Shown one piece after another: positions 6,534 through 29,737 of a stretch of 29,737 nucleotides of DNA. Below the pieces are notes generated by a model. It saw only the letters and a program-made list of their open reading frames with translations. It ran no database searches and had not been told where the DNA came from. Where the stretch lies: positions 1-29,737 of the IMG/VR virus record IMGVR_UViG_3300025073_000135; one strand, 5' to 3'. This stretch comes from a virus. Position numbers and translations under genes: made by a program. Numbering within the stretch: the first letter of the stretch is position 1; the number at the start of each line of letters is the position of its first letter.

Positions 6534-6551
6534 AAACAGGAGATTACTAAC

Positions 6552-8468: not shown

Positions 8469-8479
8469 TAAGGGTAAAA

Positions 8480-8497: not shown

Positions 8498-8499
8498 AC

Positions 8500-9585: not shown

Positions 9586-9594
9586 GTAAATAAA

Positions 9595-9629: not shown

Positions 9630-9642
9630 ATAAGTTGGGGAA

Positions 9643-9825
9643 ATGTCAAAGAGATTCAGTGAAAAACACGGACGCACAATTTCAAATAAATCTTTTATGA
9701 AGAAAGGCGGGCAGTTGCCATGTCGGCGTTGTGGTTTCTATTTTGAGAAGTACGGGAAGAATACGGCAAAGATTCTTGGTGACGAAATTATCTGCACAGA
9801 TTGTTTCGATAGCGAAACGGATTAA
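9643..9825 (+). CDS. Small zinc-ribbon protein
   Basis: A 60-residue basic protein with CRRC (about 27-30) and CTDC (about 51-54), a two-knuckle zinc ribbon. A purine-rich TTGGGGA precedes the ATG. It has no signal peptide, in contrast to the genes on each side. Function is unknown. A DNA- or RNA-binding or adaptor role is possible. Confidence 0.6.
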   Translation: MSKRFSEKHGRTISNKSFMKKGGQLPCRRCGFYFEKYGKNTAKILGDEIICTDCFDSETD

Positions 9826-9840
9826 GAGGAAGGTCAAAAC

Positions 9841-10221
9841 ATGAAACGCATTATATTAACGCTTTATCTGTTGTCGTTTTGTTCAATTCTATATGCTGTT
9901 GAGCCAACAACCCCATATTTGGGAAACGATCCAAGGCCGTGTAATGTAACTATCAGCTCTACGGCGTGTACGCAACTAATGACTACACAAGCAGACTATA
10001 TCGGAGATTGGTTGTTGATTAATCATGGTGATTATTCGATATATTTATCAACGTATTCAATAGCGTTTTCATCTAACGCGACAAATGCCAGCAATGTAAT
10101 GCTATTGAAGACTGACGAAAGCATTAATCTGAATGGCCGCACGACGAAGAATATTTATGCAATTACTGCCGACGGTAGTGCAAGCAACAGGCTTGATATG
10201 TTCTATGTGACTCAGAAATAA
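9841..10221 (+). CDS. Small signal-peptide protein, beta-rich
   Basis: A 126-residue protein with a GAGGAAGG ribosome site. Residues 1-19 (MKRIILTLYLLSFCSILYA) are a clear Sec signal peptide with a cleavage site after LYA. The mature chain of about 107 residues looks all-beta, with Ser/Thr-rich strands and only two cysteines (in RPCNV and TACTQ), which could form a disulfide. It lies directly before the adaptor gene and is probably a minor virion protein. No family recognised. Confidence 0.6.
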   Translation: MKRIILTLYLLSFCSILYAVEPTTPYLGNDPRPCNVTISSTACTQLMTTQADYIGDWLLINHGDYSIYLSTYSIAFSSNATNASNVMLLKTDESINLNGRTTKNIYAITADGSASNRLDMFYVTQK

Positions 10222-10231
10222 GAGGAAGGAC

Positions 10232-10945
10232 ATGAAAAGAGCAATCTTTGCACTATGTATGTTTATGAATACGTCGGCTTATGCTCTTAATTTGGGTGAG
10301 ATTGAGACGATGGTTAGGAGTCTTGTCAGGGACAATACCCCTGCTACCGGTAGTCCCGTATTCTCCGATACGCTGATTGACGAGTATATCAACATCGTCC
10401 AGCGTGAAATAGCCATGAATACATGGTGTATTGAGGATTATCATACCTATACCATTGCTGTCGGTCAGGAAGAATATCAGTTTGAGTCAGACATGGTGGC
10501 GATTACCCGCCTGACCATAGACGATGAATTGATCTCGCAAAAGAGTGTGTCAAAACTTGATGATGAAGATGGTTCGTGGGATGTAAGCAAGGCGACATCC
10601 ACGCCCTCGTATTACTATGTGCGTCACACGACTGTCAGTGTTATTGGTTTTGACACTATTCCTTCGACAACCACAGACACGTCATTTACTGCATGGTATA
10701 TCAAAAACCCCACCGAATTGACCTCCGACACTGACGAGCCATTTGACGGACAGGACAGATTAGATCCGTTCCACTATGCCATTGTATTGGGCGCGTCAGC
10801 TCTTATCAGCTATGCCTATGGAAAACCGACCGACGGAGACAAATACTATATGCTCTACGTTGACCGCATAAACGTGATGGAACGTGTCATAAGGGTTACG
10901 CCTGACTATGTGCCTTCATTCATGGGAAATAGCAATAAAAAATGA
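10232..10945 (+). CDS. Head-to-tail adaptor protein with signal peptide
   Basis: After residue 18 the sequence reads as a phage adaptor (P22 gp4/T7 gp11-like role, linking portal to tail). It has an N-terminal LGEIETMVRSLVRD helix, then FSDTLIDEYINIVQREIA, a beta domain with TYTIAVGQEEYQF, and a C-terminal helix DPFHYAIVLGASALISYAYGK. Residues 1-18 (MKRAIFALCMFMNTSAYA) are a Sec signal peptide ending in AYA, added exactly before the domain. A cytoplasmic portal-binding protein is not expected to be exported, so this is a key oddity. A GAGGAAGG ribosome site precedes it, and its stop overlaps the next start (ATGA). Confidence 0.8.
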   Translation: MKRAIFALCMFMNTSAYALNLGEIETMVRSLVRDNTPATGSPVFSDTLIDEYINIVQREIAMNTWCIEDYHTYTIAVGQEEYQFESDMVAITRLTIDDELISQKSVSKLDDEDGSWDVSKATSTPSYYYVRHTTVSVIGFDTIPSTTTDTSFTAWYIKNPTELTSDTDEPFDGQDRLDPFHYAIVLGASALISYAYGKPTDGDKYYMLYVDRINVMERVIRVTPDYVPSFMGNSNKK

Positions 10946-13251: not shown

Positions 13252-13939
13252 TTTAATCATCATTCTGTCGGTTTCTCTTTCATGGGCTCAAGCCCCTGAA
13301 ATTGTTGACCCTATTTTAAACGGTCTGCAAAATCGCAGGGCGATAGATTCAAGGCAAAATAATGTAACCCTGCATGGTAATCAAGCAGTTTACGGCGATA
13401 AAATCTTTGAAAATGACGTGTATTTTAATGGTACAGAGTCGCATTCAGGGGCTTGCACGTTCAGCGGAGCCACCACCATCACCAATCTCACGGTGACGCA
13501 CTCGACGATTACGAATATAACGACGACGAATTTAAACACTCCCTATATATGGAACAAAAGCATACCGAGAAGGAGTGGAACCTCTCCAATAACTTTAACA
13601 AACACTTCCGACACGACTTGGGTTGATATTTCTGGGAGTGCATTTGAGATACCAATTTCTTCATCACATTACTTAGTTTCAATCCATGTTCGTGCTACAG
13701 CACCAGCCGGAACTGACTATCAGGTAAAGATTGGGGGGTTTTCGTTTAATATAGACACGTCGGACGTTGTGTATGGACAGGGGTTTTGTGATGGCTGTGG
13801 AAATGGGGCAAACGATATACATTATTTATATTTAGATACTTTCACGTCATCAACTCTAACGTTTACATTTCACAATGGAGATAATGCAGACGCTGGAACT
13901 ATATATCAACTATCCTTTTTGCTGCTTGTTCCGTATTGA
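13229..13939 (+). CDS. Fibre/spike-like protein with signal peptide
   Basis: The ATG at 13229 overlaps the nozzle gene by 23 bases and gives 236 residues beginning with a signal peptide (MIRNLFSSLIIILSVSLSWA, cleaved after SWA). An upstream ATG at 13193 would spoil this leader. The mature part has a helical start, strands with TVTHSTITNITTTNLNT, and a C-terminal beta-sandwich-like region from about 130 (DTTWVDISGSAFEI to YQLSFLLLV) that resembles trimeric fibre heads. It contains a CDGC motif near residue 190. It is likely a tail or collar fibre. Confidence 0.65.
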   Translation: MIRNLFSSLIIILSVSLSWAQAPEIVDPILNGLQNRRAIDSRQNNVTLHGNQAVYGDKIFENDVYFNGTESHSGACTFSGATTITNLTVTHSTITNITTTNLNTPYIWNKSIPRRSGTSPITLTNTSDTTWVDISGSAFEIPISSSHYLVSIHVRATAPAGTDYQVKIGGFSFNIDTSDVVYGQGFCDGCGNGANDIHYLYLDTFTSSTLTFTFHNGDNADAGTIYQLSFLLLVPY

Positions 13940-13969
13940 GTCGCCTACATCATCAAATATTGAGGTGTC

Positions 13970-14023
13970 ATGAAAAAAAAGATCGTGATTCAAGTATTAA
14001 CCAAATTTATAAAAGGAGAATGA
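13970..14023 (+). CDS. Micro-ORF, 17 residues
   Basis: MKKKIVIQVLTKFIKGE, with GAGGTG 2 bases before the ATG. Its stop overlaps the ribosome site and start region of the next gene (TGATATG), so it may act as a leader that feeds ribosomes to the ejection-protein gene. It is a basic amphipathic peptide. It may be a chance ORF. Confidence 0.35.
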   Translation: MKKKIVIQVLTKFIKGE

Positions 14024-14024
14024 T

Positions 14025-15344
14025 ATGGCTATAACCCAAAGTGAAGTTGACAAAGCACGCAGTATGGGTGGTGCCGCGCCTTGGAAAAATAAATATTATT
14101 TACGTTATGTTGACGAATTTACTAAGGCCGGATTAACGCCAACGGAATCATTTAATGAATTTAAGGTTCCTTGGAGTGGCGATCTTGAAGGTACGTATTT
14201 AACGAAATACGGTACGCAAGTATATTCAAAAACTGTCGATAACTATAACGCAGAAGCACGGAAGTATGGCAAGCTAACCGGCGTTACACAGGATATTATT
14301 TCAAATAAATATCCTGATAGTGAAGAATGGAAAGACCTGCCCTCTTTAACAAGCGAAATAGAAGAAAGAACAAAAACACTTCCACAGCAGGCTGCACAAT
14401 ACTGGGAAGATACTGTTAAGCCGAAACTTGATAAAGCCATTGCCGATGGTGATTATGATACCGCTAATAGTATCTACGGCACGATTGAAACACAGAATGC
14501 GTATGGTTATGACCTTACACCTTATAAAGACAAAATAGCGACATTAAAAACAACCACAGAGGCAGAAGAGGAAGCGGCTTACGCAGAGTCACCAGAAACT
14601 ACTGAAATTAAGACAAGAATACAGAGCATTATTGACAACCCCGAAACGGTTGACCCTGAAAAAGTAAGGACATGGACGCAGTATTACAACAATTTGTACT
14701 CAGAAGAAGATAGGAAAGCCGCCACACGGCTTACGGAGTCTTTTTCGGCTGTTGGCGATATTGGAAGTTCAGCACACCAGCAAGCCGTAGCGGACTTGAT
14801 CAGAGAGACACAGCTTGGACGCGAGCAGATGGGATATAGTGCCGCGTCCAATGAATTGGGTCAAAAACTTACACAGACAGGAACAGGAATTGACCGCTTA
14901 TTGGGAATAGCATCAGCAAACGACCAAAGACGCTTGATACCTTTACAGAATGAATTTCAATCGTTTCTTGCCAGGCAAAACGCTGGATTCCAAACAGAAG
15001 CAAACAGACTTGACGCTGGCTATAAATCCGTTGCACAGCAGCGACAGATTGACTCACAGGAACGCTCAGACCGTGAAATGGTGAACCTTTACAAATCGAC
15101 ACAACCAAGAGAGGCGCAATGGTGGCAGCCGTTACTTGATACAGCGATAATGGGCGCAGGCTATGCCATTGGTGGCCCCGTCGGTGGCATGGTTGCTTCT
15201 GGTGTTAGTGGACTTCTTAAAGGAAGTCAACCTACATCGTCTATTGGATATCAAAATCTCGCAAGTGCAAGTAGACCATATTATAATCAACCTTCTCGAA
15301 TATCAGATATTAACAGTTCTTTTCCAAGTCTTTTAAGGAGATAA
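14025..15344 (+). CDS. Ejection-type internal virion protein 1
   Basis: A 439-residue, mostly helical, Gln/Glu-rich protein without a signal peptide. Residues 230-340 are long helices (AVADLIRETQLGREQMG and IPLQNEFQSFLARQNAGF). A C-terminal glycine-zipper hydrophobic stretch (WWQPLLDTAIMGAGYAIGG and GMVASGVSGLLKG, about 360-400) could insert into a membrane. Such proteins in podoviruses leave the head first and form the DNA-ejection channel across the envelope. AGGAG precedes the ATG. It begins the three-gene ejection block. Confidence 0.65.
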   Translation: MAITQSEVDKARSMGGAAPWKNKYYLRYVDEFTKAGLTPTESFNEFKVPWSGDLEGTYLTKYGTQVYSKTVDNYNAEARKYGKLTGVTQDIISNKYPDSEEWKDLPSLTSEIEERTKTLPQQAAQYWEDTVKPKLDKAIADGDYDTANSIYGTIETQNAYGYDLTPYKDKIATLKTTTEAEEEAAYAESPETTEIKTRIQSIIDNPETVDPEKVRTWTQYYNNLYSEEDRKAATRLTESFSAVGDIGSSAHQQAVADLIRETQLGREQMGYSAASNELGQKLTQTGTGIDRLLGIASANDQRRLIPLQNEFQSFLARQNAGFQTEANRLDAGYKSVAQQRQIDSQERSDREMVNLYKSTQPREAQWWQPLLDTAIMGAGYAIGGPVGGMVASGVSGLLKGSQPTSSIGYQNLASASRPYYNQPSRISDINSSFPSLLRR

Positions 15345-18437: not shown

Positions 18438-19217
18438 ATGAAGCTGCTTTTAATTGGAATTATGTTTACGCTGTCAATCCCGGTAGGTGCCGCTACCGTT
18501 GAAACATTTACATCCACTGGAACGTATACATGGGTTTGCCCTGTGGGTGTCACGTCGGTCAAGGTTGAGTGTTGGGGCGGCGGTGCCGCAGGGCTGACGG
18601 CTGCTTCTGGACATGGCGGCTTTGGTGGCGGTGGTGGTTCTTATGCTCGGCTAAACGCATTAACCGTTATTCCCGGAAACTCGTATGCGGTTGTTGTTGG
18701 TGGCTGGGGCATAACCAATACCAGCATATCCGATGCGTCGGTATTCGGTGGACCAACGTCATTTGTAAGCACCAGCACTTGCCTTGCTACTGGTGGTGGT
18801 CGTTCTTCCAACTCGTCGTATGGTGGATTGGCGAGTGCATGTATTGGCGATGTTGCGTATGGCGGAGGCAATGGAGGGTCTTACGCATCAACAAGTGGCG
18901 GCGGTGGCGCTTCGAGTGCTGGGTCTGCCTCAGATGGGAACAATGGTGGCGATGCTTTAGCAATTGCTCCATACACACCCGGGGCTGGTGGTGTCGCTCC
19001 GACTGGTGGGTATGCAGGTGGAGATGGCGCTGCAAATAATCAAAACGCTACGCCAGTTCCTTTAACCAATTATGGAGCAGGCGGTGGCGGTGGCGGTGGT
19101 TTTGCAACATACACAGGAAGCCGTGGTGCTGGTGGATTAGTTAAATTGACTTATACAATGGCAAAGAATAAAAAACAGTATTGCGGAACAAGCAGAATAC
19201 TACTTTTTAATCGTTAA
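18438..19217 (+). CDS. Glycine-rich tail-tip/fibre protein with signal peptide
   Basis: The start at ATG 18438 is chosen because GGAGG lies 6 bases upstream; ATG 18420 overlaps the previous stop. Residues 1-18 (MKLLLIGIMFTLSIPVGA) are a signal peptide. The 259-residue chain then follows a domain known from phage tail and bacterial surface proteins: TFTSTGTYTWVCPVGVTSVK, VECWGGGAAG, many glycine runs (GGFGGGGGS, GAGGGGGGG), and an end GLVKLTYT, followed by an extra basic tail of about 19 residues. Polyglycine-rich sandwiches of this sort act as receptor-binding tips. The gene interrupts the ejection block and is flanked by a duplicated 3' end. Confidence 0.65.
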   Translation: MKLLLIGIMFTLSIPVGAATVETFTSTGTYTWVCPVGVTSVKVECWGGGAAGLTAASGHGGFGGGGGSYARLNALTVIPGNSYAVVVGGWGITNTSISDASVFGGPTSFVSTSTCLATGGGRSSNSSYGGLASACIGDVAYGGGNGGSYASTSGGGGASSAGSASDGNNGGDALAIAPYTPGAGGVAPTGGYAGGDGAANNQNATPVPLTNYGAGGGGGGGFATYTGSRGAGGLVKLTYTMAKNKKQYCGTSRILLFNR

Positions 19218-19846: not shown

Positions 19847-21385
19847 ATGAAAAAACTACTGTATGCCATTTTAGCGATTCCGATATTGTGCAATTCCTTG
19901 TATGCCGCCACGAGTACTATGGGTTGGAATTACTACGAGAAGCCAGGGGAAAAGATTATCACTACACCTTACGCGATCTTTTCCAGTTCGCGGATTATAT
20001 TCACGTCTTCACTTGGTGGTATTCAGTGGTACAATGGCACGCTTTCCACCGCCCCAGTGACCAGTGGCGGGGCAAGCGCACACGCCGACCTGACACAGCT
20101 TGACTATGCGTCATCTGGACATACAGGGTTCGCGTCGGTTGAAGATACCGGAACACTGAAAGCTGATATTGCCACCCACTATACAGAGTTAAAAGCGACA
20201 GGTGCGGCATTGTCGGCACTTACGGTGACAGTTGCTGGAATACAGGCATCCACCCCATCCGCGACAAGTGTGACAAACTGGAACTATGCATATAGTGCAA
20301 TCGATAGTAGCGAAAACTGGAATACGGCGTATGGGTGGGGTGATCATGGGGCGGCAGGGTATGCGTTAGAGGTTGACACCCTGACCATAGGAACGGGCTC
20401 TACGCAAGCCGCTGCTGGAAATCACGACCATAGCGGAGTGTACGCCGTGATTGGCGATACCCTAACCGTAGGCGCACAGGTTCAGGCCTACGACGCTGAC
20501 CTTGACGATCTGGCTGACGGATCTCTGACTGGTTCTAAGGTGGGCGCAGGTGTGCCGTTTGCTTCCCTTCCTTACGGTGACGCTGACAATACGGTGGCGG
20601 TTGGCTCACATACCCACGCGGGTGTTTACCAACCCGCTGACGATGATTTAACCGACCTTGCGGACGGAGAATTGACTGGCTCTAAGGTCGGGGATGGCGT
20701 GGCTGCGGCGAACATAGCCGCTGGCTCGCTCGATACTGACGTGATCGTGTCCAGTATCGCTGTCAATGCCGTGTACCCTGACGCCGTGCAGGGCGTGGCG
20801 TATGAGCATATCAGGGCTGGGACGTCCACTATTGCCTATTCGCTCCCTTCTACGTTAAACCAAGACCTTCAGATCGTGAGTGTTGGCACCGCAACCGTTT
20901 CCCTGTCATGTTCCGGCAATGCCACAACGGTGACGAATGGGCTATATACCACGTCGGTTACAGCCGCAGAGGGTGTGCGGGTGGGTACCGCCACGGTTTC
21001 ACTGGCGTGCAGCGGTGAATCGGCCTACGTTAATGAGATTGTGATAGGTGCGTGCTTTCAGGTGTATGGTGCTACCACTACCGCAGGGGTAAAGCCTATA
21101 CAAATATCGCCAGTTCGTGACTATGCCATGACCATAACCACCATGACGATTACCGTGATCGGCGGTACGAACGTGGTGGGAATGATCGAACAGAGAGCGG
21201 TTAACGCGCAGTCCTCCGCGGGAACAGACATATGGAGCGATGACGTAACAGCCGTGACTACACATATTGGCGGTACGTTCGCAGATGCTACCGTTCCAGC
21301 CAACTATGCCATGTATTTCGTACCTACCGAATGGACAGGTGCAGTAGATACCGTGATTTTCGCTGGAAAAGCGACGAGGGATTGA
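19847..21385 (+). CDS. Tail fibre protein with signal peptide
   Basis: The ATG at 19847 (after GAGGGACA) gives 512 residues. Residues 1-20 (MKKLLYAILAIPILCNSLYA) are a signal peptide ending in LYA. The mature part is a typical modular fibre: an N-terminal region, NWNYAYSAIDSSENWNTAYG with GWGDHGAAGYA, two HxHxGVY repeats (GNHDHSGVYA and GSHTHAGVYQ), two DLADGxLTGSKVGxG repeats, then two VGTATVSLxCSG strands and a C-terminal beta domain from about 410. It is probably trimeric and used for host binding. The signal peptide and the three cysteines of the mature chain are unusual for a fibre built in the cytoplasm. Confidence 0.75.
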   Translation: MKKLLYAILAIPILCNSLYAATSTMGWNYYEKPGEKIITTPYAIFSSSRIIFTSSLGGIQWYNGTLSTAPVTSGGASAHADLTQLDYASSGHTGFASVEDTGTLKADIATHYTELKATGAALSALTVTVAGIQASTPSATSVTNWNYAYSAIDSSENWNTAYGWGDHGAAGYALEVDTLTIGTGSTQAAAGNHDHSGVYAVIGDTLTVGAQVQAYDADLDDLADGSLTGSKVGAGVPFASLPYGDADNTVAVGSHTHAGVYQPADDDLTDLADGELTGSKVGDGVAAANIAAGSLDTDVIVSSIAVNAVYPDAVQGVAYEHIRAGTSTIAYSLPSTLNQDLQIVSVGTATVSLSCSGNATTVTNGLYTTSVTAAEGVRVGTATVSLACSGESAYVNEIVIGACFQVYGATTTAGVKPIQISPVRDYAMTITTMTITVIGGTNVVGMIEQRAVNAQSSAGTDIWSDDVTAVTTHIGGTFADATVPANYAMYFVPTEWTGAVDTVIFAGKATRD

Positions 21386-21386: not shown

Positions 21387-21857
21387 ATGAAACACCTCAT
21401 TCCTTTCATCATCCTGTTCCTCTCAACCTCGTGCTACGGGGCGGAGTTTCTTGTGATGGCGAAAAATAACTGGATGGTGGATGCTGACCAGACGAACTGG
21501 ACAGCAGACCAGAAAGCCGAAGCCGAAAGACAGTACAAGATCGGCGACATTGTTCAGGTGTTTCCTGATGGCGCTTGCCCCGAAAATCCGTGTGTTGGTA
21601 GTCCGTTCTACATTATCCGCATTTCTGGTTTGTCTTACGATACCGCGCAGAAATACACGCAAGCGATCACCACGACGACGATTAACGCCGATGGCGTGTC
21701 AATGACTTCAATGGTCAAGCGTCGTCTATATGGAGTGCGCGCCGCCGATCTTCCGACTTCCGTTAAAACAACACTCAAGGAAACGCGCGCCTACAACACC
21801 ACATGGACAGCCGTGAAAACGTATATCACCAACAAGGTTACGGCGGTGAACGAATGA
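21387..21857 (+). CDS. Tail-region small protein with signal peptide
   Basis: A 156-residue protein starting 1 base after the fibre stop. Residues 1-18 (MKHLIPFIILFLSTSCYG) form a signal peptide; the Cys is not in a canonical lipobox. The mature sequence has YKIGDIVQVFPDGACPENPC and SPFYIIRISGLS, a pattern known from small phage tail-cluster proteins (KxGDvVxVxPDG then fxiixVpgl) that normally lack a leader. A CPENPC pair could form a disulfide. It overlaps the next gene by ATGA. Confidence 0.65.
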   Translation: MKHLIPFIILFLSTSCYGAEFLVMAKNNWMVDADQTNWTADQKAEAERQYKIGDIVQVFPDGACPENPCVGSPFYIIRISGLSYDTAQKYTQAITTTTINADGVSMTSMVKRRLYGVRAADLPTSVKTTLKETRAYNTTWTAVKTYITNKVTAVNE

Positions 21858-22903
21858 AGAAAGCACTGTTGATGCTGATGCTGTTTCCCATGCTTTCATT
21901 CGGAGCAACAATCACCCGCTATGTGAATACTGGCTCGACTGCTGGCGGGAATGGAACGACAAATGCAACGACGGGCGATAACAGGGCGTACCCTGACCCC
22001 GCTACAGGAGAGGCCGCTGAACAGACCGACCTTGTAGCCGCAGGAAATATAATAGATTTTGAATGTTCTGGAACATTGCCAATCACCGCTTTAACGACGG
22101 TGGATGGATGGACTACAAGTACAACCTGTTACATTTCTTTTGTAGGCGATTGGAGAATGCCCGAATCGGGAAATCCGTGGGATGCGACCAAGTTTCGCCA
22201 TGATTCTGCCGCTTTAATTTATAACATAACCGAATGTGTCCATCTCGAATATATGCAATTCTCATCATCGTATACCGGAAATGGATGGATATTCCCAACA
22301 GGAACACCCGATCTAACAATAAAAAATTGCATATTTCGTGGAGGCACACAGACAACCCCCGAAGATAATTGGGCGATCTTCACAAACGGATCGCCATCAA
22401 CAACAACAATAATAAATTGCTTATTCTACGATTTTCCAACAGTTAATACTTCGATGCGCGTCATTTGGACAAATTCTACCGGTCATATATTTAATTTTTT
22501 TAACAATACAATGGTCGGTGGGTATTATTTCTGGCGGGCAATAGTCGTGAATGCTTACAACAACATTATTCAAGGTGCAGTTGATTGTTGCCTGAATGTG
22601 ACATTCTTAAACGAAGATGGAAACATTGCCAATACATCTGAATTTTCAGGAGCATCATCACATAACTCGGTTTCAGTTTCATTTTTCAATGCCGAAGGGA
22701 AAGACTATCATCTGTCATCGACCGACACCTACGCGCTTGACGGCGGCGTAAGCGACCCTGGGTCTGGATTATACTCAACCGACATCGACGGCGACACCCG
22801 TTCCGGCACATGGGACATCGGGGCTGATGAGTACGTTTCAGCGGAGCCTCCGGTAGTAATAGATGAGGGCTGGATTCCGCAGGTAATTATATTCGGGTGG
22901 TGA
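21854..22903 (+). CDS. Beta-helix tailspike-like protein with signal peptide
   Basis: The 349-residue protein starts within the previous stop (ATGA). Residues 1-17 (MKKALLMLMLFPMLSFG) are a signal peptide. Repeated short strands (LTIKNCIFRGG, TIINCLFYDF, FNFFNNTMVGG, VVNAYNNIIQG) form a right-handed parallel beta-helix ladder at about 160-270. The end DIDGDTRSGTWDIGADEY is the hallmark of secreted bacterial beta-helix (pectate-lyase-like) proteins. The role may be a tailspike that binds or cuts host polysaccharide. No catalytic residues can be named. The secreted-type C-terminus suggests origin from a bacterial exoprotein. Confidence 0.7.
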   Translation: MKKALLMLMLFPMLSFGATITRYVNTGSTAGGNGTTNATTGDNRAYPDPATGEAAEQTDLVAAGNIIDFECSGTLPITALTTVDGWTTSTTCYISFVGDWRMPESGNPWDATKFRHDSAALIYNITECVHLEYMQFSSSYTGNGWIFPTGTPDLTIKNCIFRGGTQTTPEDNWAIFTNGSPSTTTIINCLFYDFPTVNTSMRVIWTNSTGHIFNFFNNTMVGGYYFWRAIVVNAYNNIIQGAVDCCLNVTFLNEDGNIANTSEFSGASSHNSVSVSFFNAEGKDYHLSSTDTYALDGGVSDPGSGLYSTDIDGDTRSGTWDIGADEYVSAEPPVVIDEGWIPQVIIFGW

Positions 22904-23665: not shown

Positions 23666-23811
23666 TGAAGCTTCTTTCAGAAACACAGTCTATCTGTATC
23701 AAGTGCATGGAACACAGGTGGGAGAAAATCTGTCATTGCTATACCTGCCCGAAAGGACTGAAAGAGCGTAAATTTAAAAATAGAAAATTAAATAAAGATA
23801 CTTTTACATAA
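23665..23811 (+). CDS. Small Cys-rich zinc-ribbon-like protein
   Basis: A 48-residue ORF overlapping the previous stop, with GAGG upstream. Cysteines occur as CIKC (11-14) and CHCYTC (23-28), suitable for zinc binding. The C-terminus is Lys-rich and runs 24 bases into the opposite-strand HNH gene. The end may have been changed by that insertion. Confidence 0.45.
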   Translation: MKLLSETQSICIKCMEHRWEKICHCYTCPKGLKERKFKNRKLNKDTFT

Positions 23812-24288
23812 ATATCGTTTAATTGTTCCTTTGGAAGTAGATAGTAACTTTGCAGTTTTTCTAAGGGTTTTCATATCTAAGAATGATTCCCATAATATAT
23901 TTGTATCAAAAATCTTCTTTTTTGCATTAAATCGCGGCTTAAATTTGCCGATTTTAACACCATCCCAGTAGTCTATTGATGTTAGCATGTCGTGTATCCT
24001 TTTTGGTAATAGTTCGAGATTTTCTATCCTATTATCATGCCTAACATTGTTTTTGTGATGAATAACATAGCCATTAGGTATTTTGCCATAATGTTTTTCC
24101 CATAATATTCTGTGGACGTACTTTTGCGCAAATGTAACATATCCATTATTATTAAATTTCCTTATTCTTGGTCTGTTATTTCTTGCACATCTGTCACACA
24201 TACGATCAACAATATCGTGTGAATCTGGACATTTAACCATTTTTACATTCTTACAAAGAATACACGTTCTTTTGACAATATAATACAC
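23788..24288 (-). CDS. HNH homing endonuclease
   Basis: A 166-residue nuclease of the free-standing HNH_3 type. It carries CxxC pairs at 9-12 and 31-34 and the core VHRILWEKHYGKIPNGYVIHH with His59 and His77-78, then HDNRIENLELL (Asn86, Asn90). The C-terminus holds a helix-turn-helix-like TLRKTAKLLSTSKGTIKRYL. It starts at GTG 24288 with GGAGG 5 bases before. It is oriented against the late genes and visibly more AT-rich than they are, which points to a mobile insertion between the lysis genes. Confidence 0.85.
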   Translation of the reverse strand: MYYIVKRTCILCKNVKMVKCPDSHDIVDRMCDRCARNNRPRIRKFNNNGYVTFAQKYVHRILWEKHYGKIPNGYVIHHKNNVRHDNRIENLELLPKRIHDMLTSIDYWDGVKIGKFKPRFNAKKKIFDTNILWESFLDMKTLRKTAKLLSTSKGTIKRYLCKSIFI

Positions 24289-24308: not shown

Positions 24309-24773
24309 ATGGAACTAATAGACATCCAAGAGTATATTGCAAATTTCAAAAATCCGAGAAAGTGGAGCCATATAATTATTCATCACAGCCTTACAAAAGA
24401 TGGCAATGTTAATGACTGGTCAGCTATTACAAATTACCACAAGAACGTAATGCAATTCGCAGATTGTGGCTACCACGCAGGATTGGAGATAGTGGACGGC
24501 TCAATAGTCTATCAGGTAGGGCGTCCACTTGACCTACAAGGGGCGCATACTCTGGGAATGAATGATCGGGCTATCGGTATCTGTATAGTGGGAAATTTCG
24601 ATATTGTAGCACCTTCTAATGCTCACTATTTCCTGACCGCCAACCTATGCAAGGCGTTTATGGGTAGGTTCGGGATCCCGTCTTGTAACGTCCTGCCCCA
24701 CAGGGAATACGCCTATAAGACTTGTCCAGGCAAGCTATTTGACATGATTCGGCTTAGGAACGAGATTTCTTAA
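24309..24773 (+). CDS. N-acetylmuramoyl-L-alanine amidase (endolysin)
   Basis: A zinc amidase of the T7-lysozyme/PGRP (Amidase_2) family that cuts the bond between muramic acid and L-alanine in peptidoglycan, causing lysis. Its 154 residues match T7 lysozyme length. Zinc ligands by alignment are His25 (IIIHHS), His131 (LPHREY) and Cys139 (KTCPG), with Tyr55 (GYHAG) and Lys137 as the catalytic pair equivalents. It has no signal peptide, so it needs a holin. It is the last + strand gene, and its 3' end overlaps the minus-strand gene by 20 bases. Confidence 0.93.
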   Translation: MELIDIQEYIANFKNPRKWSHIIIHHSLTKDGNVNDWSAITNYHKNVMQFADCGYHAGLEIVDGSIVYQVGRPLDLQGAHTLGMNDRAIGICIVGNFDIVAPSNAHYFLTANLCKAFMGRFGIPSCNVLPHREYAYKTCPGKLFDMIRLRNEIS

Positions 24774-24921
24774 ACCAACCCGATTCCTGCCACTCATAAC
24801 CGGCATCAATCATCTGCTGTCTTTTTCTATGATCAATATGTTCAATTAGTAATATCAATATCGTCAAATTTCCAATAATAGTAAATGCAATCACGGCAGC
24901 GTCAATTGCCTCTTTGCTCAT
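24754..24921 (-). CDS. Small membrane protein
   Basis: A 55-residue protein, last in the minus-strand operon. AAGGAGAGAG lies before ATG 24921, which overlaps the upstream stop (ATGA). A membrane helix (about 7-27, DAAVIAFTIIGNLTILILLI) is followed by a charged part with HRKRQQMIDAGYEWQESGW. The GYEW-type ending after a helix is common in small phage membrane proteins. Function unknown. Confidence 0.6.
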   Translation of the reverse strand: MSKEAIDAAVIAFTIIGNLTILILLIEHIDHRKRQQMIDAGYEWQESGWFKKSRS

Positions 24922-25103
24922 ACTCTCTCCTTTTTAATCCATCCCTTCCTAATCCACTTGATACCAAATTCTTCAGCTTTCGCGCATGGTTCACGCCGAC
25001 CACATATAGCACAAGTCTGTATCATACAAGACCCTATTCTAACACTTGATTTACCGTATTTAATCCCACATTCAAGACATACCCATAGTTGCTTATTACC
25101 CAT
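24918..25103 (-). CDS. Zinc-ribbon protein, WxCxxCG family copy 1
   Basis: A 61-residue protein with LWVCLECGIKYG and CAICGRREPC, two zinc knuckles, then a basic tail. It belongs to the same family as the product at 25942-26097 (WICHDCGMEHG, then VCKEEKSVTEGRDYG) but has lost the TWH and VTEpRD residues. It overlaps the genes on both sides. The role is unknown. Confidence 0.6.
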   Translation of the reverse strand: MGNKQLWVCLECGIKYGKSSVRIGSCMIQTCAICGRREPCAKAEEFGIKWIRKGWIKKERV

Positions 25104-25284
25104 GCCTACAATCCTTTAATACTTTCTTGATCTTCTTTAGTGCAGCTCTGGCAAGGGAACGGGTACGGAAACAATCTATTGGAAGTTTTGCATGACCATT
25201 ATATGTACCAGCTATAATTGAATCAACCTCATAGAAAAACCATACCATATCACCATGTTCAGGCATCCACTTTTGTTTTTTCAT
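25096..25284 (-). CDS. Hypothetical small protein
   Basis: A 62-residue basic protein. The start at ATG 25284 is chosen for AAAGGA just before it, although the frame is open to 25302. It reads KWMPEHGDMVWFFYEVDSI, then CFRTRSLARAALKKIKKVL, a pattern of a short strand region followed by a basic helix. Phage genomes often carry such (PxxGdxyWyi...F.teeeA..a) proteins. Function unknown. Confidence 0.55.
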   Translation of the reverse strand: MKKQKWMPEHGDMVWFFYEVDSIIAGTYNGHAKLPIDCFRTRSLARAALKKIKKVLKDCRHG

Positions 25285-25294
25285 TTTAGATCCT

Positions 25295-25537
25295 TTAACC
25301 ATTATGTATGCAAATTTCGTATTTACATATTGGACATTTTATTGCTGTGTAATAATCACCCTCACCAACTATGAATTTATCCGAACCACATTTAATGCAA
25401 AAAAGTGTTTTGCATGGGATTTCGTCGTAACATTGACCAATGTGGAAATTATCATCTTCAACTGTTTTAATTAAATCTTTAAACATTTTATCTTCAAGAT
25501 CAGGTGGATATATTTCAGAATCAACTTTTTTATTCAT
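25295..25537 (-). CDS. Zinc-ribbon protein
   Basis: 80 residues from ATG 25537, which has GGAGG upstream and overlaps the previous micro-gene by ATGA. An acidic N-terminal half is followed by a four-Cys ribbon: CIKCGSDKF, and CPICKYEIC near the end. Likely a nucleic-acid-binding or structural zinc protein. No specific family. Confidence 0.6.
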   Translation of the reverse strand: MNKKVDSEIYPPDLEDKMFKDLIKTVEDDNFHIGQCYDEIPCKTLFCIKCGSDKFIVGEGDYYTAIKCPICKYEICIHNG

Positions 25538-25593
25538 TCCAACTCCTCCGCGCTTGATATTTCCGTCCCGCAATCCGAACACTTGAATTTCAT
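25534..25593 (-). CDS. Micro-protein with zinc half-site
   Basis: A 19-residue ORF, MKFKCSDCGTEISSAEELE, joined to both neighbours by ATGA overlaps. The CSDCG knuckle resembles the start of larger phage zinc ribbons, so it may be a minimal or decayed member. The exact fit into the overlap chain favours translation. Confidence 0.4.
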   Translation of the reverse strand: MKFKCSDCGTEISSAEELE

Positions 25594-25700
25594 TTCACCA
25601 CCTTTGAGATTATCAAGCCTATTATCAATATCGCTTTAACGATTGGAGCCGAAGCGAATACGCACAGCAGAACATACCACCACATCGGAATCGTAATCAT
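25590..25700 (-). CDS. Small membrane protein
   Basis: A 36-residue, almost wholly hydrophobic protein (TIPMWWYVLLCVFASAPIV, then AILIIGLIISK). It is linked by ATGA overlaps to both neighbours. One or two membrane spans. No family recognised. Confidence 0.5.
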   Translation of the reverse strand: MITIPMWWYVLLCVFASAPIVKAILIIGLIISKVVK

Positions 25701-25945
25701 TCAATTTCCTTTAACGCTTTTTCTCTGTCATGCCAATCGGGTTCACCATCATCCCCATACGGGAATACCACTTTATCATACTCCCTCACCGCATCCCTGA
25801 TCTGGGTGCGGATAAAGTCCTTTATTCTTTCAAAATCATATTCATTACAGTTGCAGTCAAGTTCGAAACCTTCGTCGATAAATCCCCCGTCTTTAATTTT
25901 CGTATCAAGTTTCTTGTTGAACAATTCTTCCCAGTTCTTTTTCAT
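25697..25945 (-). CDS. Hypothetical protein, FIRTQI family copy 1
   Basis: An 82-residue acidic protein. It starts NWEELFNKKLDTKI and has IKDFIRTQIRDAVREYD in the middle. The product at 29533-29715 shares WEDEF and KKFIRTQITKAYEQG, so the two are paralogues of a family frequent in phages (W..eFd, then IkdFI...i.xA). Function unknown. ATGA overlaps on both sides. Confidence 0.6.
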   Translation of the reverse strand: MKKNWEELFNKKLDTKIKDGGFIDEGFELDCNCNEYDFERIKDFIRTQIRDAVREYDKVVFPYGDDGEPDWHDREKALKEIE

Positions 25946-26097
25946 TTCCTGATCTCCCGTACCCCGTAATCCCTACCCTCGGTGACAGACTTCTCTTCCT
26001 TGCATACGTCGAACTTACCATAGTGCCATGTGCTTATGCTTATAGGCGGTCTACCGTGTTCCATTCCACAATCATGACATATCCATGTTACTTGCAT
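25942..26097 (-). CDS. Zinc-ribbon protein, WxCxxCG family copy 2
   Basis: 51 residues from ATG 26097; the frame is open to 26145 but that would overlap the whole end of the preceding gene. The sequence TWICHDCGMEHG, STWHYGKFDVC, VTEGRDYG is the full form of a family of small phage proteins with a CxxCG, a TWH and a VTexRD(F/Y)G motif. The second CxxC is incomplete (VCKEEK), so zinc may be bound by Cys and His. Ribosome site weak. Confidence 0.6.
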   Translation of the reverse strand: MQVTWICHDCGMEHGRPPISISTWHYGKFDVCKEEKSVTEGRDYGVREIRK

Positions 26098-26243
26098 TGT
26101 ACGCCCCAATCCAGCCGTGATCCTATTAGTGGGCAAGATAAGCACTTATATCCATTATTGCATTTATCCATTGACAACATTACAGGGCAGCCGTAGGTTA
26201 TATTTACTGGCACCACCACCTCGCGCTCGACGGTTTCTTTCAT
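26088..26243 (-). CDS. Small Cys-rich protein
   Basis: A 51-residue protein with GAGAGGA before ATG 26243. It has CPVMLSMDKCNNGYKCLSC, a Cys-rich cluster, and a further Cys near the end. It overlaps the next gene by 10 bases. Likely zinc-binding; no family recognised. Confidence 0.5.
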   Translation of the reverse strand: MKETVEREVVVPVNITYGCPVMLSMDKCNNGYKCLSCPLIGSRLDWGVQCK

Positions 26244-26416
26244 TTAATCCTCTCATGATTCCAAAATTTCAATGCGTCTGCCTCTGATTTATACCACATA
26301 CTCCTCAAATGACAGTCGGAGCACTCAACGCGCCAGAGTCCTTGCGCTGTCGCTATGACAAAGAACGTGGCGCCGCCGCAGGCGCACGGATTTAATTTGT
26401 CGTCAGGTTTGTTCAT
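26240..26416 (-). CDS. Lar-like restriction alleviation protein
   Basis: 58 residues from ATG 26416, with GGAGGATTTGGAG upstream; it overlaps the preceding gene by ATGA. The order LNPCACGGATFFVI, WRVECSDCHLRSMWY, SEADALKFWNHER matches the Lar family (LkPCPFCGg, yrVeCxxCgxxt, teeeAixxWNxR), whose Rac-prophage member lessens type I restriction by the host. Lar-like proteins are very common in phages and most are untested, so the anti-restriction role is by family only. Confidence 0.75.
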   Translation of the reverse strand: MNKPDDKLNPCACGGATFFVIATAQGLWRVECSDCHLRSMWYKSEADALKFWNHERIK

Positions 26417-26553
26417 CTCCAAATCCTCCCTATCCAACTTTTGAGACGGTACCAGAGGGTTGGCTGAAAGTGTGGGCATATAGGTTGTCCAAATATTGCA
26501 ATTCCCCTCGAACATAGTATATTCTTACAATCCCCACAATAACCCTTATCCAT
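26413..26553 (-). CDS. Small zinc-ribbon protein, WYRLK paralogue (short)
   Basis: A 46-residue protein: YCGDCKNILC, then CPHFQPTLWYRLKSWIGRI. It is a short relative of the next upstream gene (YCGDC, then CPHFKPSIWYRLKRWIGGG), and they share 16 identical bases (26441-26456 and 26828-26843). It ends where the longer relative continues into a hydrophobic segment. ATGA overlap with the Lar-like gene. Confidence 0.55.
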   Translation of the reverse strand: MDKGYCGDCKNILCSRGIAIFGQPICPHFQPTLWYRLKSWIGRIWR

Positions 26554-26556
26554 TGG

Positions 26557-27030
26557 CTACCTCGCTCCTTTCAGAAATTTAATCAAGCACTCTCTGTGCA
26601 GTGGCATACCGTCAACGGATTGATTTACGCTCTTTCCTTCGCCAGTACTGATTCTTTTGCCCCATTCATCATACGACTTAACGTCTTCTCCGCACAAAAC
26701 ACATTTACCATAATTAAATTCATTTTGAACATTTGTGACGTTTTCTTCGCCAATTTCGCCACCAAACCCAACCGATGGAACAGTTCCCATCGCTGCCAAG
26801 AAAATCACACCACCCCCAATCCATCGTTTGAGACGGTACCAGATGGACGGCTTGAAGTGCGGGCAGTCGTTGTTAGCGTTTAACTCATGTGGTTTATTTT
26901 CAATCCGCATCGTACCTTTTGAGTGCCATGAATTAAAATGTTCTTTTTTCCCTGTGTAACATTTTGAAATTCCTTCATAAAATCCTTCATGTCTATACCT
27001 CGCACAATCCCCGCAATAAACCTTACCCAT
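26557..27030 (-). CDS. Two-module zinc protein with hydrophobic linker
   Basis: A 157-residue protein. Module one (1-70): VYCGDCARYRHEG, a Cys, and CPHFKPSIWYRLKRWIGG. A hydrophobic stretch (GGVIFLAAMGTVPSVGFGGE, about 72-91) that resembles a membrane helix or an internal signal peptide follows. Module two: YGKCVLCGEDVKSYDEWGK, then GMPLHRECLIKFLKG, a second Cys/His site. It looks like a fusion of the short WYRLK gene with another zinc protein. Function unknown. Starts inside the previous gene's end. Confidence 0.6.
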   Translation of the reverse strand: MGKVYCGDCARYRHEGFYEGISKCYTGKKEHFNSWHSKGTMRIENKPHELNANNDCPHFKPSIWYRLKRWIGGGVIFLAAMGTVPSVGFGGEIGEENVTNVQNEFNYGKCVLCGEDVKSYDEWGKRISTGEGKSVNQSVDGMPLHRECLIKFLKGAR

Positions 27031-27187
27031 TGACTACCTCGCTATTCCTCTTTTCTCGCAGTCTATTCTCCACCGATACGATCTCCGATTCCATCAATGC
27101 CACGCACTCTCTCCGTAGCTGGTTAAGGTCAGCACCTTTTTTTCTACTCGCCTTCTGAAAATCGAAAAGTATTTTGTTTATGGTCAT
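27023..27187 (-). CDS. Small coiled-coil-like protein
   Basis: A 54-residue protein, GAGAG before ATG 27187. It is basic and helical (ILFDFQKASRKKGADLNQL, then VALMESEIVSVENRLREK). Possibly a short coiled coil. It overlaps the next gene by 8 bases. No family recognised. Confidence 0.5.
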   Translation of the reverse strand: MTINKILFDFQKASRKKGADLNQLRRECVALMESEIVSVENRLREKRNSEVVNG

Positions 27188-27190
27188 CTC

Positions 27191-27442
27191 TCAATCCTTT
27201 TGTGCCATAACTTTATCCAAAATTGGTCTAACGCATTCAGAACATAGGTCATATTCACGTCCAAGATCGAATCTTATTACTGCTTTTGCTTTTTTCTTAA
27301 ACTTATCAAATACATATGCGTTTTTTCCACATAGATCACATACAACATGTTGCTCTATCGTTGTGGTTACAGTTTCCTCTTCGACCATTTTTGAAATGGC
27401 ATTGGTACTTAAAAACAAAACAAGCGCAAGTGCTATTTTCAT
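27191..27442 (-). CDS. Signal-peptide zinc-ribbon protein
   Basis: An 83-residue protein starting in an ATGA overlap. The first 17 residues (MKIALALVLFLSTNAIS) look like a signal peptide. The rest has VVCDLCGKNAY, EYDLCSECVRPIL, a four-Cys ribbon known from small phage proteins (CDLCGk, yDLCxxC) that normally have no leader. Met19 has no ribosome site, so the longer form is preferred. An exported zinc ribbon would be unusual. Confidence 0.6.
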   Translation of the reverse strand: MKIALALVLFLSTNAISKMVEEETVTTTIEQHVVCDLCGKNAYVFDKFKKKAKAVIRFDLGREYDLCSECVRPILDKVMAQKD

Positions 27443-27714
27443 CCCTCAATCCTCTCTTTCCAGTCGGTTAGGGCTGAATTATATTGGTGATACTTACCAA
27501 ATGCCCCAACGGGAATCTTTCTCGGCGGCATCAGCCCCAGCACCCTCGCCCTCTCGTTCTTCGTCCCTTCAATCACACCTTGCTCCCGGGCGGCGGTGAG
27601 GAGGGATTGGATTGCGTTGTATTTAACACATGAAACCTTGCCATCGAAAATACAATTTTCCAGACATACAACCTCACATCCTGACGCTCTACAAATCTCT
27701 TTATTCATATCCAT
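27439..27714 (-). CDS. Hypothetical protein with Cys-rich N-terminus
   Basis: 91 residues from ATG 27714, with GAGG 5 bases upstream. The N-terminus has CRASGCEVVCLENC. The C-terminus contains LTAAREQGVIEGTKNERARVLG, then YNSALTDWKERIEG. Cys and helix parts suggest a metal site plus a helical tail. ATGA overlap with the gene after it. No family recognised. Confidence 0.55.
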   Translation of the reverse strand: MDMNKEICRASGCEVVCLENCIFDGKVSCVKYNAIQSLLTAAREQGVIEGTKNERARVLGLMPPRKIPVGAFGKYHQYNSALTDWKERIEG

Positions 27715-27716
27715 AA

Positions 27717-27764
27717 TCACCTCACCTTTCCTAAGTTACCACCAACCCACATTAACCAGTTCAT
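27717..27764 (-). CDS. Micro-ORF, 15 residues
   Basis: MNWLMWVGGNLGKVR, with AGGAG before the ATG and ATGA overlap with the alanine-repeat gene. It looks like the start of a membrane protein cut short. It may act as a coupling leader to the next gene, whose GAGG lies at its stop. It could be chance. Confidence 0.3.
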   Translation of the reverse strand: MNWLMWVGGNLGKVR

Positions 27765-28402
27765 GAATTCTCCTTTAACATTTCAATCCCATGCTTGACG
27801 ATTTTCTTTTTCATGGCGGCATCGGCGGCGGCACGGGCGGCATAGGCGGCGGCATAGGCGGCATCGGCGGCACAGGCGGCACGGGCGGCATAGGCGGCGG
27901 CATAGGCGGCATCGGCGGCACAGGCGGCACGGGCGGCGGCATCGGCGGCGGCACGGGCGGCATAGGCGGCACGGGCGGCGGCATCGGCGGCGGCACGGGC
28001 GGCATAGGCGGCGGCATAGGCGGCGGCATAGGCGGCATAGGCGGCATAGGCGGCATCGGCGGCACAGGCGGCACGGGCGGCGGCATCGGCGGCGGCACGA
28101 TTTTCTTTCGTATCGTTTGACAGCACTGCTTTTGCCGCGTCTATCGCCTGTCGTGGACGTTTGTCTTTGGGATATTTCTTTTCATAAATATCAATAACCT
28201 GTTCAGCGGCATATATTGCGTATGCGATATACTGTTTCCTTTTCATAACTCGCACGATCGTCCAGTTGCCCCAATCAAGTTTTTTTTCAGCTACCAGCTT
28301 TTCCAAAACCTTCACCGCGTCGGTTTCCGTTTGTGCGTTAAACCACGCCGTGCCATCCAAACACGCGCCTTTTTCTTTCAGCCATTCTTTGGTTATTTTC
28401 AT
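27761..28402 (-). CDS. Alanine-repeat protein (putative immunity-type)
   Basis: A 213-residue protein. The N-terminal 100 residues (WLKEKGACLDGTAWF, then IAYAIYAAEQVIDIYEKKY) match a family of phage and bacterial proteins often labelled putative immunity protein. From about residue 102 to 195 it is an alanine array with units AAY, AAD, AAC and AAR, predicted as long helix. It ends in MKKKIVKHGIEMLKENS. GGAGAGGGC precedes ATG 28402, overlapping the previous stop (ATGA). The function is not established; the array probably differs in length between strains. Confidence 0.65.
   Translation of the reverse strand: MKITKEWLKEKGACLDGTAWFNAQTETDAVKVLEKLVAEKKLDWGNWTIVRVMKRKQYIAYAIYAAEQVIDIYEKKYPKDKRPRQAIDAAKAVLSNDTKENRAAADAAARAACAADAAYAAYAAYAAAYAAAYAARAAADAAARAAYAARAAADAAARAACAADAAYAAAYAARAACAADAAYAAAYAARAAADAAMKKKIVKHGIEMLKENS
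27814..28098. repeat. GGCGGC-NNN tandem triplet array
   Basis: About 285 bases of GGCGGC or GGCGGCGGC separated by ATA, ATC, ACA or ACG (+ strand). A 48-base unit is repeated exactly in tandem at 27841-27888 and 27889-27936, and 54 bases from 27901 recur at 28045. On the minus strand it codes the alanine array. All frames are open through it, giving false Pro- and Gly-rich ORFs. Such arrays expand and shrink by slippage or unequal crossing. Confidence 0.9.
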
Positions 28403-29091
28403 GCCCTCTCCTTTGCGATCAGGTGTTCGAGGATTGCCTCAGTAACGTGCCAGTAGTGGCGCCATTCCTTGCGAAACTCGTCGGGAACAGGCATTTCACC
28501 AAATTCCATGTGCTTGTCAAATAACCTTTCCAATTCGCTCGGCTCCTTCGGTGCGGGCTTTTCCTCGACGTAGGGGATGGGATTATAATTACAACACCTG
28601 ATAGTGTTTTCATTATCTATTTCATGCAAAGTCCTCATTGAACATGCAAGTTGTTGACATGATTGATGTTTATGACAAATCATCATCTGCGGCTTTTCCT
28701 CGGAGAGATTGGCATTGTGCGTCATTTTAATGTTGTCAATGTGTGCGTTTACTGCGTCATAGTATTCCTTATTCGTCTTTTCCTCGGCGACCTCCACGAA
28801 GAGGTCGAAGAGGTTGATAATACCATCCGATAATTCAGTGTAAAGCGTAGGCCCATTTTTATGAACGCCATACTTTCCTTCGTACCCAGTCCTCAAATTT
28901 CGATAGTGTTTACCTTCGACGAGTTCGCTTAGGATGAGTTCGTGGTCATTTATGATCTGAAACCATTCTGGATACTTTTTGCAGTCAGGAATTGCAATAT
29001 GGCAATTAGCAAATCTTACAAAACCATACTCGGCTATACCAATCTCACCTACCTTAATCCCCGCCTGATCTTTAATCGCTCTTACGCGCAT
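28399..29091 (-). CDS. Hypothetical modular protein
   Basis: 230 residues from ATG 29091 (GGGAGAG upstream). N-terminal 1-45 is a small beta domain (RVRAIKDQAGIKVGEIGIAE) of a type common in phages. A helical middle (FVEVAEEKTNKEYYDAVNAH) is followed by a Cys/His cluster (CHKHQSCQQLAC near 145-156 and CC near 171) and a C-terminal helix region (LERLFDKHMEF, WRHYWHVTEAILEHL). It seems to fuse several small phage modules. Function unknown. Confidence 0.6.
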   Translation of the reverse strand: MRVRAIKDQAGIKVGEIGIAEYGFVRFANCHIAIPDCKKYPEWFQIINDHELILSELVEGKHYRNLRTGYEGKYGVHKNGPTLYTELSDGIINLFDLFVEVAEEKTNKEYYDAVNAHIDNIKMTHNANLSEEKPQMMICHKHQSCQQLACSMRTLHEIDNENTIRCCNYNPIPYVEEKPAPKEPSELERLFDKHMEFGEMPVPDEFRKEWRHYWHVTEAILEHLIAKERA

Positions 29092-29093
29092 GA

Positions 29094-29300
29094 TTACTCT
29101 CCCTTCTTCGGTGGTTTTGGCAATGGCATCCAATGGGTAACCGCTGGTGGAAAATTAATTCTTTCGCATGATGAATGTTTTGGTATGTTACAGAACATCG
29201 TGCAAACAGTTCCGTGTGATAATTTAACAATATATTGCTTTCTGACACTATTTTTAGCGACTACAACTGGTAACTTCTTTTTCACGCTTATCCATTTCAT
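29094..29300 (-). CDS. DUF551 family protein
   Basis: 68 residues from ATG 29300 (AAAGGAGAG upstream). It begins KWISVKKKLPVVV and ends VTHWMPLPKPP, the two hallmarks of DUF551 proteins of phages and enterobacteria. The family has no known function. Confidence 0.8.
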   Translation of the reverse strand: MKWISVKKKLPVVVAKNSVRKQYIVKLSHGTVCTMFCNIPKHSSCERINFPPAVTHWMPLPKPPKKGE

Positions 29301-29302
29301 GA

Positions 29303-29536
29303 TTACTCTCCTTTGATTTTGATTGGCTTGCCGCACGACGGGCAATACTTATCAATATACCCATACCGCTTTACTGTGCAACTACTGGCAAACTGAACGC
29401 CATCCCTCACCCACTCGCAATACTCGGTCATCTGGTCTGACTGCTTTTTTAGAAGTTGCATATTTATATCCCCATCTTCACAATATGCGCTTTTGCCCAG
29501 ACCCAGCCCATACCACGTTTTCGGATCGGTTATCAT
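29303..29536 (-). CDS. Zinc-ribbon phage protein
   Basis: 77 residues from ATG 29536, which overlaps the upstream stop (ATGA) and has AGGAG before it. The C-terminal half has YCEWVRDG, SCTVKRYGYIDKYCPSCGKPI, the pattern of a common small phage zinc protein (C..W, sC, fCpxCGkxI). The N-terminal 40 residues are less ordered. Function unknown. Confidence 0.6.
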   Translation of the reverse strand: MITDPKTWYGLGLGKSAYCEDGDINMQLLKKQSDQMTEYCEWVRDGVQFASSCTVKRYGYIDKYCPSCGKPIKIKGE

Positions 29537-29715
29537 TTTGAGGCTCCTTTTCCGTCGATCTTTCCCTGCTCGTAGGCTTTGGTGATTTGGGTGCGGATGA
29601 ATTTCTTTACCTTTTCTATATCCTGCCATCTATCAAACGGTGGATGTTGTGATCTAATTTCAAAATCACCATACCATCCATCTTCAAACTCATCTTCCCA
29701 CGTTTCATTGTTCAT
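29533..29715 (-). CDS. Hypothetical protein, FIRTQI family copy 2
   Basis: A 60-residue acidic protein with GAGGTGA before ATG 29715. It reads TWEDEFEDGWYGDFEI, then IEKVKKFIRTQITKAYEQG, a paralogue of the 25697-25945 product. It is the first gene of the minus-strand operon inside the window; the promoter must lie beyond the edge or further genes precede it. Confidence 0.6.
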   Translation of the reverse strand: MNNETWEDEFEDGWYGDFEIRSQHPPFDRWQDIEKVKKFIRTQITKAYEQGKIDGKGASK

Positions 29716-29737
29716 GATTTCACCTCTAAGAGTTCGG

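Follow-up and report, generated by a model that had tools for sequence, protein, structure and literature searches.

What kind of locus strings 21 very small genes together on one strand of a phage genome, and what might their products do? The question is raised by IMG/VR record IMGVR_UViG_3300025073_000135, a viral fragment of 29,737 bases that was analysed over its full length (hereafter, the window). Its right end is occupied by a chain of minus-strand open reading frames (ORFs), g01 to g21, that an earlier sequence-only reading had singled out. We find the chain to be real as a set of coupled reading frames and, though most of its proteins are uncharacterised, ordinary in kind. It is probably the promoter-distal accessory part of a temperate tailed-phage early operon, filled by duplication and acquisition with host-interaction genes that would be individually dispensable.

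All 21 ORFs are present and form one unbroken chain from 29715 to 24754. As the sequence-only reading had held, the genes meet at ATGA or short overlaps: 12 of 20 junctions are 4-nt overlaps (11 ATGA, one GTGA), and no junction of the 20 falls outside the range -10 to +10 nt. Among the plus-strand (late) genes of the same record, a 4-nt overlap occurs at 1 of 25 junctions. Shine-Dalgarno (SD)-like motifs stand 4-13 nt upstream of 19 of the 21 chain starts, whereas only 18 of the 143 other ATGs on that strand of the region have one. The starts without such a motif are those of g14 and g19, and g19 is better started at 25284 because that start has one. Scored by codon usage trained on the plus-strand genes, the annotated frame comes out best of the six for 14 of 21 genes when stops are excluded (about 3 or 4 are expected by chance), and for 18 of 21 when they are counted; a rough gene caller likewise recovered 18 of 21 ORFs, missing g11, g13 and g14. 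Translation as one coupled unit, proposed earlier, is thus well supported by the predicted junctions and SD signals. The end of g21 overlaps a convergent amidase gene by 20 bases. At the other end, a reading frame that enters from beyond the record terminates at a TGA overlapping the g01 ATG, so the chain probably continues past the record. Its elements are as follows.

29712-29737, minus strand: last codons of a probable gene before g01, its frame open at the record end and its TGA at 29714-29712 in an ATGA overlap with g01; 7 codons long, and weak for that reason.
29533-29715, minus strand: g01, 60 amino acids (aa); weak similarity to g15 (..IRTQI..; z 5.0, 1 of 200 shuffles as good).
29303-29536, minus strand: g02, 77 aa; one CxxC (CPSCGKP) close to the C-terminus; sub-threshold zinc-ribbon matches.
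29094-29300, minus strand: g03, 68 aa; DUF551 (Pfam PF04448, 1.5e-7, above cut-off; PHROG 7704).
28399-29091, minus strand: g04, 230 aa; 7 Cys; uncharacterised, no IMG/VR relative found.
27761-28402, minus strand: g05, 213 aa; Imm5_like all-helical domain, alanine-rich repeat tail and C-terminal helix (Pfam, model).
27717-27764, minus strand: g06, 15-aa ORF; 4-nt overlaps tie g05 to g07 (sequence).
27439-27720, minus strand: g07, 93 aa; GTG start; 5 Cys without CxxC (sequence).
27191-27442, minus strand: g08, 83 aa; signal-peptide-like N-terminus, then two CxxC (CDLC..CSEC); weak relative in locus L024 (0.009).
27023-27187, minus strand: g09, 54 aa; no Cys pair (sequence).
26557-27030, minus strand: g10, 157 aa; g11-like N part, hydrophobic stretch and g08-like C part; two CxxC (g10/g11 z 16.1; g08/g10 z 4.2).
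26413-26553, minus strand: g11, 46 aa; short paralogue of the g10 N part; frame rank 5 of 6 (stops excluded); missed by the caller.
26240-26416, minus strand: g12, 58 aa; Lar-like, first knuckle CxC rather than CxxC (PHROG_599 1.6e-7; under Pfam and NCBIfam cut-offs).
26088-26243, minus strand: g13, 51 aa; one CxxC (sequence).
25942-26097, minus strand: g14, 51 aa; belongs to a widespread, unnamed Cys4 family of phages, with Phe in place of the third Cys; no SD motif (family profile 8e-25).
25697-25945, minus strand: g15, 82 aa; resembles g01 (all-against-all comparison).
25590-25700, minus strand: g16, 36 aa; hydrophobic, likely a membrane peptide (sequence).
25534-25593, minus strand: g17, 19 aa; single CxxC (MKFKCSDCGTE..; sequence).
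25295-25537, minus strand: g18, 80 aa; two CxxC (CIKC..CPIC); sub-threshold RING and zinc matches.
25096-25284, minus strand: g19, 62 aa from the SD-bearing start; longest frame opens at 25302; weak relative in locus L012 (0.003).
24918-25103, minus strand: g20, 61 aa; g14 paralogue with both CxxC pairs kept (z 12.8; family profile 5e-9).
24754-24921, minus strand: g21, 55 aa; hydrophobic stretch; C-terminal motif in common with g20 (g20/g21 z 5.7).

The gene organisation of the chain resembles that of the P-ren-nin-Q region of phage lambda (J02459). Both consist of short same-strand genes joined mostly by 4-nt overlaps (12/20 junctions here, 6/10 in lambda), and both have a high share of CxxC proteins (10/21 and 6/11). 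Lambda ren-nin-Q lies in the PR early operon of a temperate phage, and the phage of the window, too, is temperate (see below). According to PMC10695390, phage deleted for all the nin genes still forms plaques, and interruptions in the nin region are polar on Q. The two regions differ in that the chain has more and smaller genes; furthermore, nin is located between replication genes and a late regulator, whereas the sequence upstream of the record end here is in none of the records we found. No Nin family is among the Pfam and PHROG matches of the chain, and we therefore regard the chain as working like nin, probably, rather than as its homologue. The lambda-nin type of gene organisation thus occurs in an environmental temperate phage without detected sequence relation to the Nin proteins.

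The temperate assignment comes from two near-identical IMG/VR records, L002 and L003. Both are 100% identical to window positions 1-14730, and other parts of them align to the window at 99.9-100%, reaching position 23240. L003 extends 5,370 bases leftward beyond window position 1, where it encodes a CI-like helix-turn-helix protein and a tyrosine integrase, together with a weak AlpA-like match (0.062; under the Pfam cut-off). Because this near-identical relative has an integrase and a CI-like repressor, we conclude from gene content that the phage is temperate. Neither L002 nor L003 matches the operon; we found no IMG/VR record carrying the exact right-end sequence, and no contigs extending to the right of 29737.

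We then considered where the small proteins may have come from. Comparing 19 of the products pairwise with one another, without g06 and g17 and with only residues 1-102 of g05, revealed two clear paralogous pairs, g10/g11 (z 16.1) and g14/g20 (z 12.8), and weaker similarity for g20/g21, g01/g15 and g08/g10 (z 4.2 to 5.7); several other pairs in that same range are probably due to chance. By eye, g10 reads as a composite in which a hydrophobic stretch separates a g11-like from a g08-like part. The two clear pairs show that part of the gene set arose by duplication. The signal-peptide-like start of g08 and the hydrophobic stretch between the two Cys-pair parts of g10, both on the minus strand, suggest that these two Cys-pair proteins may be exported or tied to a membrane. 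For the motif shared by g10 and g11, a degenerate pattern recovered 0 stretches.

A pattern scan of IMG/VR, modelled partly on g14 and partly on a known family, returned 78 stretches with 79 ORFs. The motif of this unnamed phage family is WxCxxCG-(H/Y)G-WHxGxCDxC-VTExRDFG. A profile built from 59 members, after dropping one out-of-range coordinate, ORFs over 90 aa and duplicates, was run against the 21 chain proteins and matched g14 at 8e-25 and g20 at 5e-9. Though lacking most of the motif, g20 also matches family members by blastp at up to 1e-7. Given these pattern, profile and blastp matches, g14 and g20 are assigned to this common phage family, which is present in five INPHARED records, including Synechococcus phage S-EIVl. 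When g14 and g20 were aligned with 35 of the 59 members, 0 of the 37 sequences matched Pfam and 1 of 37 matched a PHROG. The two chain members depart from the family in different ways: in g14 a Phe replaces the third Cys, which breaks the arrangement of four Cys in two pairs, while g20 keeps all four Cys and has lost the WH/VTE part. A fold search of the PDB with the predicted g14 model (predicted local distance difference test score, pLDDT, 84) gave no usable match, and the g14-alignment profile gave only weak rubredoxin matches to PDB sequences, on the first CxxC (best 0.006). Over the whole chain, relatives are clear for five of the 21 genes (g03, g05, g12, g14 and g20) and weak for two (g08 and g19); none was found in IMG/VR for g04 and g10, or in INPHARED for g10, g18 and g20.

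Cysteine pairs are a recurrent feature of the chain. Strict CxxC occurs in ten of the 21 products (g02, g08, g10, g11, g12, g13, g14, g17, g18 and g20), compared with a mean of 3.0 and a maximum of 9 in 5,000 rounds of within-protein residue shuffling. Two CxxC pairs, the usual minimum of a classical zinc ribbon, are found only in g08, g10, g18 and g20. The earlier description of about half the products as zinc ribbons was overstated: it is an upper bound, because only these four have two pairs, g12 has CxC plus CxxC and g14 has lost one Cys. Similarly, its count of at least twelve CxxC-type products is reached only if other close Cys pairs are included (g04, g07 and g15, by eye).

Such pairs are also frequent in other small-gene runs. 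In a census made with one caller on 105 sequences of at least 4 kb, window included, 53 runs had at least eight small genes, and the CxxC share of the window run ranks fifth among them, with the operon split by the caller and scored as 3/8. A rank that is high but not unique led us to reject the view that the array stands apart in its Cys-pair content. Among small neighbours of g05 relatives, 45 of 228 have CxxC (no homologue was called at 6 of the 36 loci). Near g14 relatives, counted for 65 of the 79 ORFs, CxxC is present in 49 of 353 small genes, versus 18 of 328 in other parts of these loci. The chain lies at the rich end of a common type of small-gene run.

Of the products with clear relatives, only g12 and, more remotely, g05 offer a lead towards anti-defence. 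Another of them, g03, covers the whole DUF551 model (PF04448) at 32.6 bits against a cut-off of 22, a full-length match to a family of uncharacterised function. Lar proteins carry two CxxC knuckles. Compared with the Lar/RalR families (PF14354, TIGR03655, PHROG_599), g12 matches over most of its length, reaching 1.6e-7 for PHROG_599; it has CxC plus CxxC instead of two CxxC, and scores under the curated cut-offs of Pfam (22.4 versus 28.6 bits) and NCBIfam (26.3 versus 39.6).

The g05 domain lies above the Pfam Imm5_like (PF21805) cut-off (32.6 versus 25 bits) and was also compared with Imm5 (PF14423) and PHROG_38757. It differs from these families in that no toxin partner is seen and in its long alanine-rich repeat tail of changing length. 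We collected 36 relatives: 31 IMG/VR loci, four genome loci and Methanosarcina virus MetMV. PF21805 matches 18 of 28 aligned sequences, g05 included, and the tail is at least 30% alanine in 28 of the 32 ORFs of at least 140 aa. Near-identical pairs show in-frame length differences, 60 nt for L006/L039 and 45 nt for L020/L021, which fall within the repeat tail or where it begins. At two loci (L037 8001-8636 and L041 10001-10636), a (GGGIEA)n repeat, rather than an alanine tail, follows the first ~50 residues of the g05 domain. The alanine-repeat DNA of g05 also contains a plus-strand open frame (window 27791-28120) with Gly-Gly-Ile/Thr repeats, probably a by-product of the repeat. A literature search for alanine-repeat Imm5 phage proteins gave nothing on point.

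An AlphaFold model of g05, built from g05 and 27 of its 36 relatives, is confident for residues 1-110 (pLDDT by block 79-96) and for the final helix (83-95), but not for the tail (about 41-63). Its best PDB match is 7jtu_B (Z 10.6, root-mean-square deviation 4.0 over 157 residues). Entry 7JTU, as described in PMC7901873, contains the SsdA deaminase toxin and its all-helical immunity protein SsdAI, and chain B is presumably SsdAI. We treat this match as a lead, because Foldseek alone gives E 4.5 and Z values under about 13 are common for helical models. In BFVD, the model matches A0A6J5RNF9, 'Imm-5-like' (E 0.06, probability 1.00). Pfam and PHROG scans of the g05 neighbours, most of which are uncharacterised, showed no toxin family. 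Relatives of g05 often lie within runs of small same-strand genes; the other window genes compared with the 36 loci gave nothing at E up to 0.01. Matches from a looser search at these loci were discarded, as shuffled queries gave matches in the same range (best E 0.0007). The statement that only the Lar-like, DUF551 and alanine-repeat products can be named was nearly right: DUF551 and Imm5_like are above their cut-offs, the Lar match is sub-threshold, and g14 and g20 also belong to the unnamed family. Two recurring, poorly characterised phage proteins, the g14 family and the Imm5_like protein with its alanine tail of changing length, recur in metagenomes often enough to merit study.

How, then, might the chain work? 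As the distal accessory part of an early operon, it would be transcribed on a leftward message, against the late genes, soon after infection or induction. Ribosomes would move along this message by termination-reinitiation at the ATGA junctions, giving many small proteins at similar levels. The content may have come from duplication and loss of small Cys-pair proteins (g10/g11, g14/g20, and probably g01/g15 and the g08-like part of g10), which would explain the paralogues, the fusion and the decay, and from acquired circulating phage cassettes (DUF551, Lar-like, Imm5_like and the g14 family). Each product would most likely work independently of the others, a small adaptor acting on a host protein or nucleic acid early in infection, and, by analogy with lambda nin, each may be dispensable on its own. 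Several results weigh against this account. No promoter or terminator is seen within the record, where promoter-like sites are at chance level (16 found, 16.2 expected). Because none of the records we found includes the region upstream of 29737, the connection of the chain to the CI-side genes of L003 is a presumed one. Nor was a Nin family matched; no relative was found for 14 of the 21 genes; and a search for the host with the portal gave 0 matches in 399 genomes from one order and 395 from one phylum.

Four other explanations compete with, or would modify, this account. Several of the smallest ORFs (g06, g09, g11, g13, g16 and g17) could be non-functional spacer frames that keep ribosomes moving, a possible but doubtful view. 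It fits the size of g06 and g17 (15 and 19 aa), the failure of g06, g11, g13 and g17 to rank first by codon usage (stops excluded), and the caller's omission of g11, g13 and g14; however, all six have SD motifs and near-contiguous junctions, and g11 is a clear paralogue of g10. An anti-defence island, in which most of the small proteins block different host defences, with g12 alleviating restriction and g05 neutralising a toxin-type effector, we consider unlikely. Of the earlier suggestion of anti-defence or host take-over factors, the anti-defence part does retain a lead in the PHROG_599 match of g12 and, more remotely, in g05, through its Imm5_like domain and its match within the SsdA toxin-immunity complex. 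Against it, g12 falls below the curated cut-offs with CxC as its first pair, the structural match of g05 is of a strength common for helical models, and no other gene offers a defence or anti-defence lead; the PADLOC library, which covers defence and not anti-defence, matched 0 of 19 scanned products.

The two remaining explanations build on the Cys pairs. The end of the chain might be a duplicating bank in which Cys-pair domains are copied, fused and left to decay, and in which a g05 antitoxin is tuned or retargeted to toxin-like defence effectors by in-frame gain and loss of alanine repeats. The composite make-up of g10 and the broken metal site of g14 are the grounds for the copying part; as a whole we hold the idea to be very unlikely. 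We give still less credence to a zinc-ribbon take-over complex, in which the Cys-pair proteins would be one related set acting together on host transcription or translation machinery. The CxxC excess, the two paralogous pairs and a tight coupling that would give similar stoichiometry agree with it, but the Cys proteins show no mutual alignment apart from those pairs and the weaker g08/g10 match, g14 is without one of its four Cys, g17 has one CxxC in 19 aa, and relatives of g05 and g14 occur in other neighbourhoods without the rest of the set. The early-operon account, with separately acting products, remains the one we favour.

Several features outside the chain deserve mention. The amidase gene sits between the operon and an HNH_3 endonuclease gene on the minus strand (window 23788-24288, 2.1e-19), which is on the strand opposite to the amidase gene. 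The record has no Rfam match and no transfer RNA. The large terminase is split across two overlapping plus-strand frames (window 563-1429 and 1380-2093); the split is not a single-assembly error, because two other records are identical there. By a crude rule, Sec-signal-like N-termini are found in 9 of 30 late genes versus 27 of 678 genes in g05-bearing loci, with alternative starts tried for the late genes only and not for these controls. The nine are:

8500-9585, 9841-10221, 10232-10945, 10948-13251, 13226-13939, 18438-19217, 19847-21385, 21387-21857 and 21854-22903, plus strand: Sec-signal-like late genes (crude rule).

Such starts are odd for genes of a virion module; one of these genes matches a structural PHROG, and a literature search on signal peptides in virion proteins gave nothing on point. 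Finally, L003 carries, adjoining its integrase and repressor genes, a plus-strand lipoprotein-like ORF (1282-1791) with a collagen-like GDKGDDGDKGDGGDDG stretch, perhaps a lysogenic-conversion gene.

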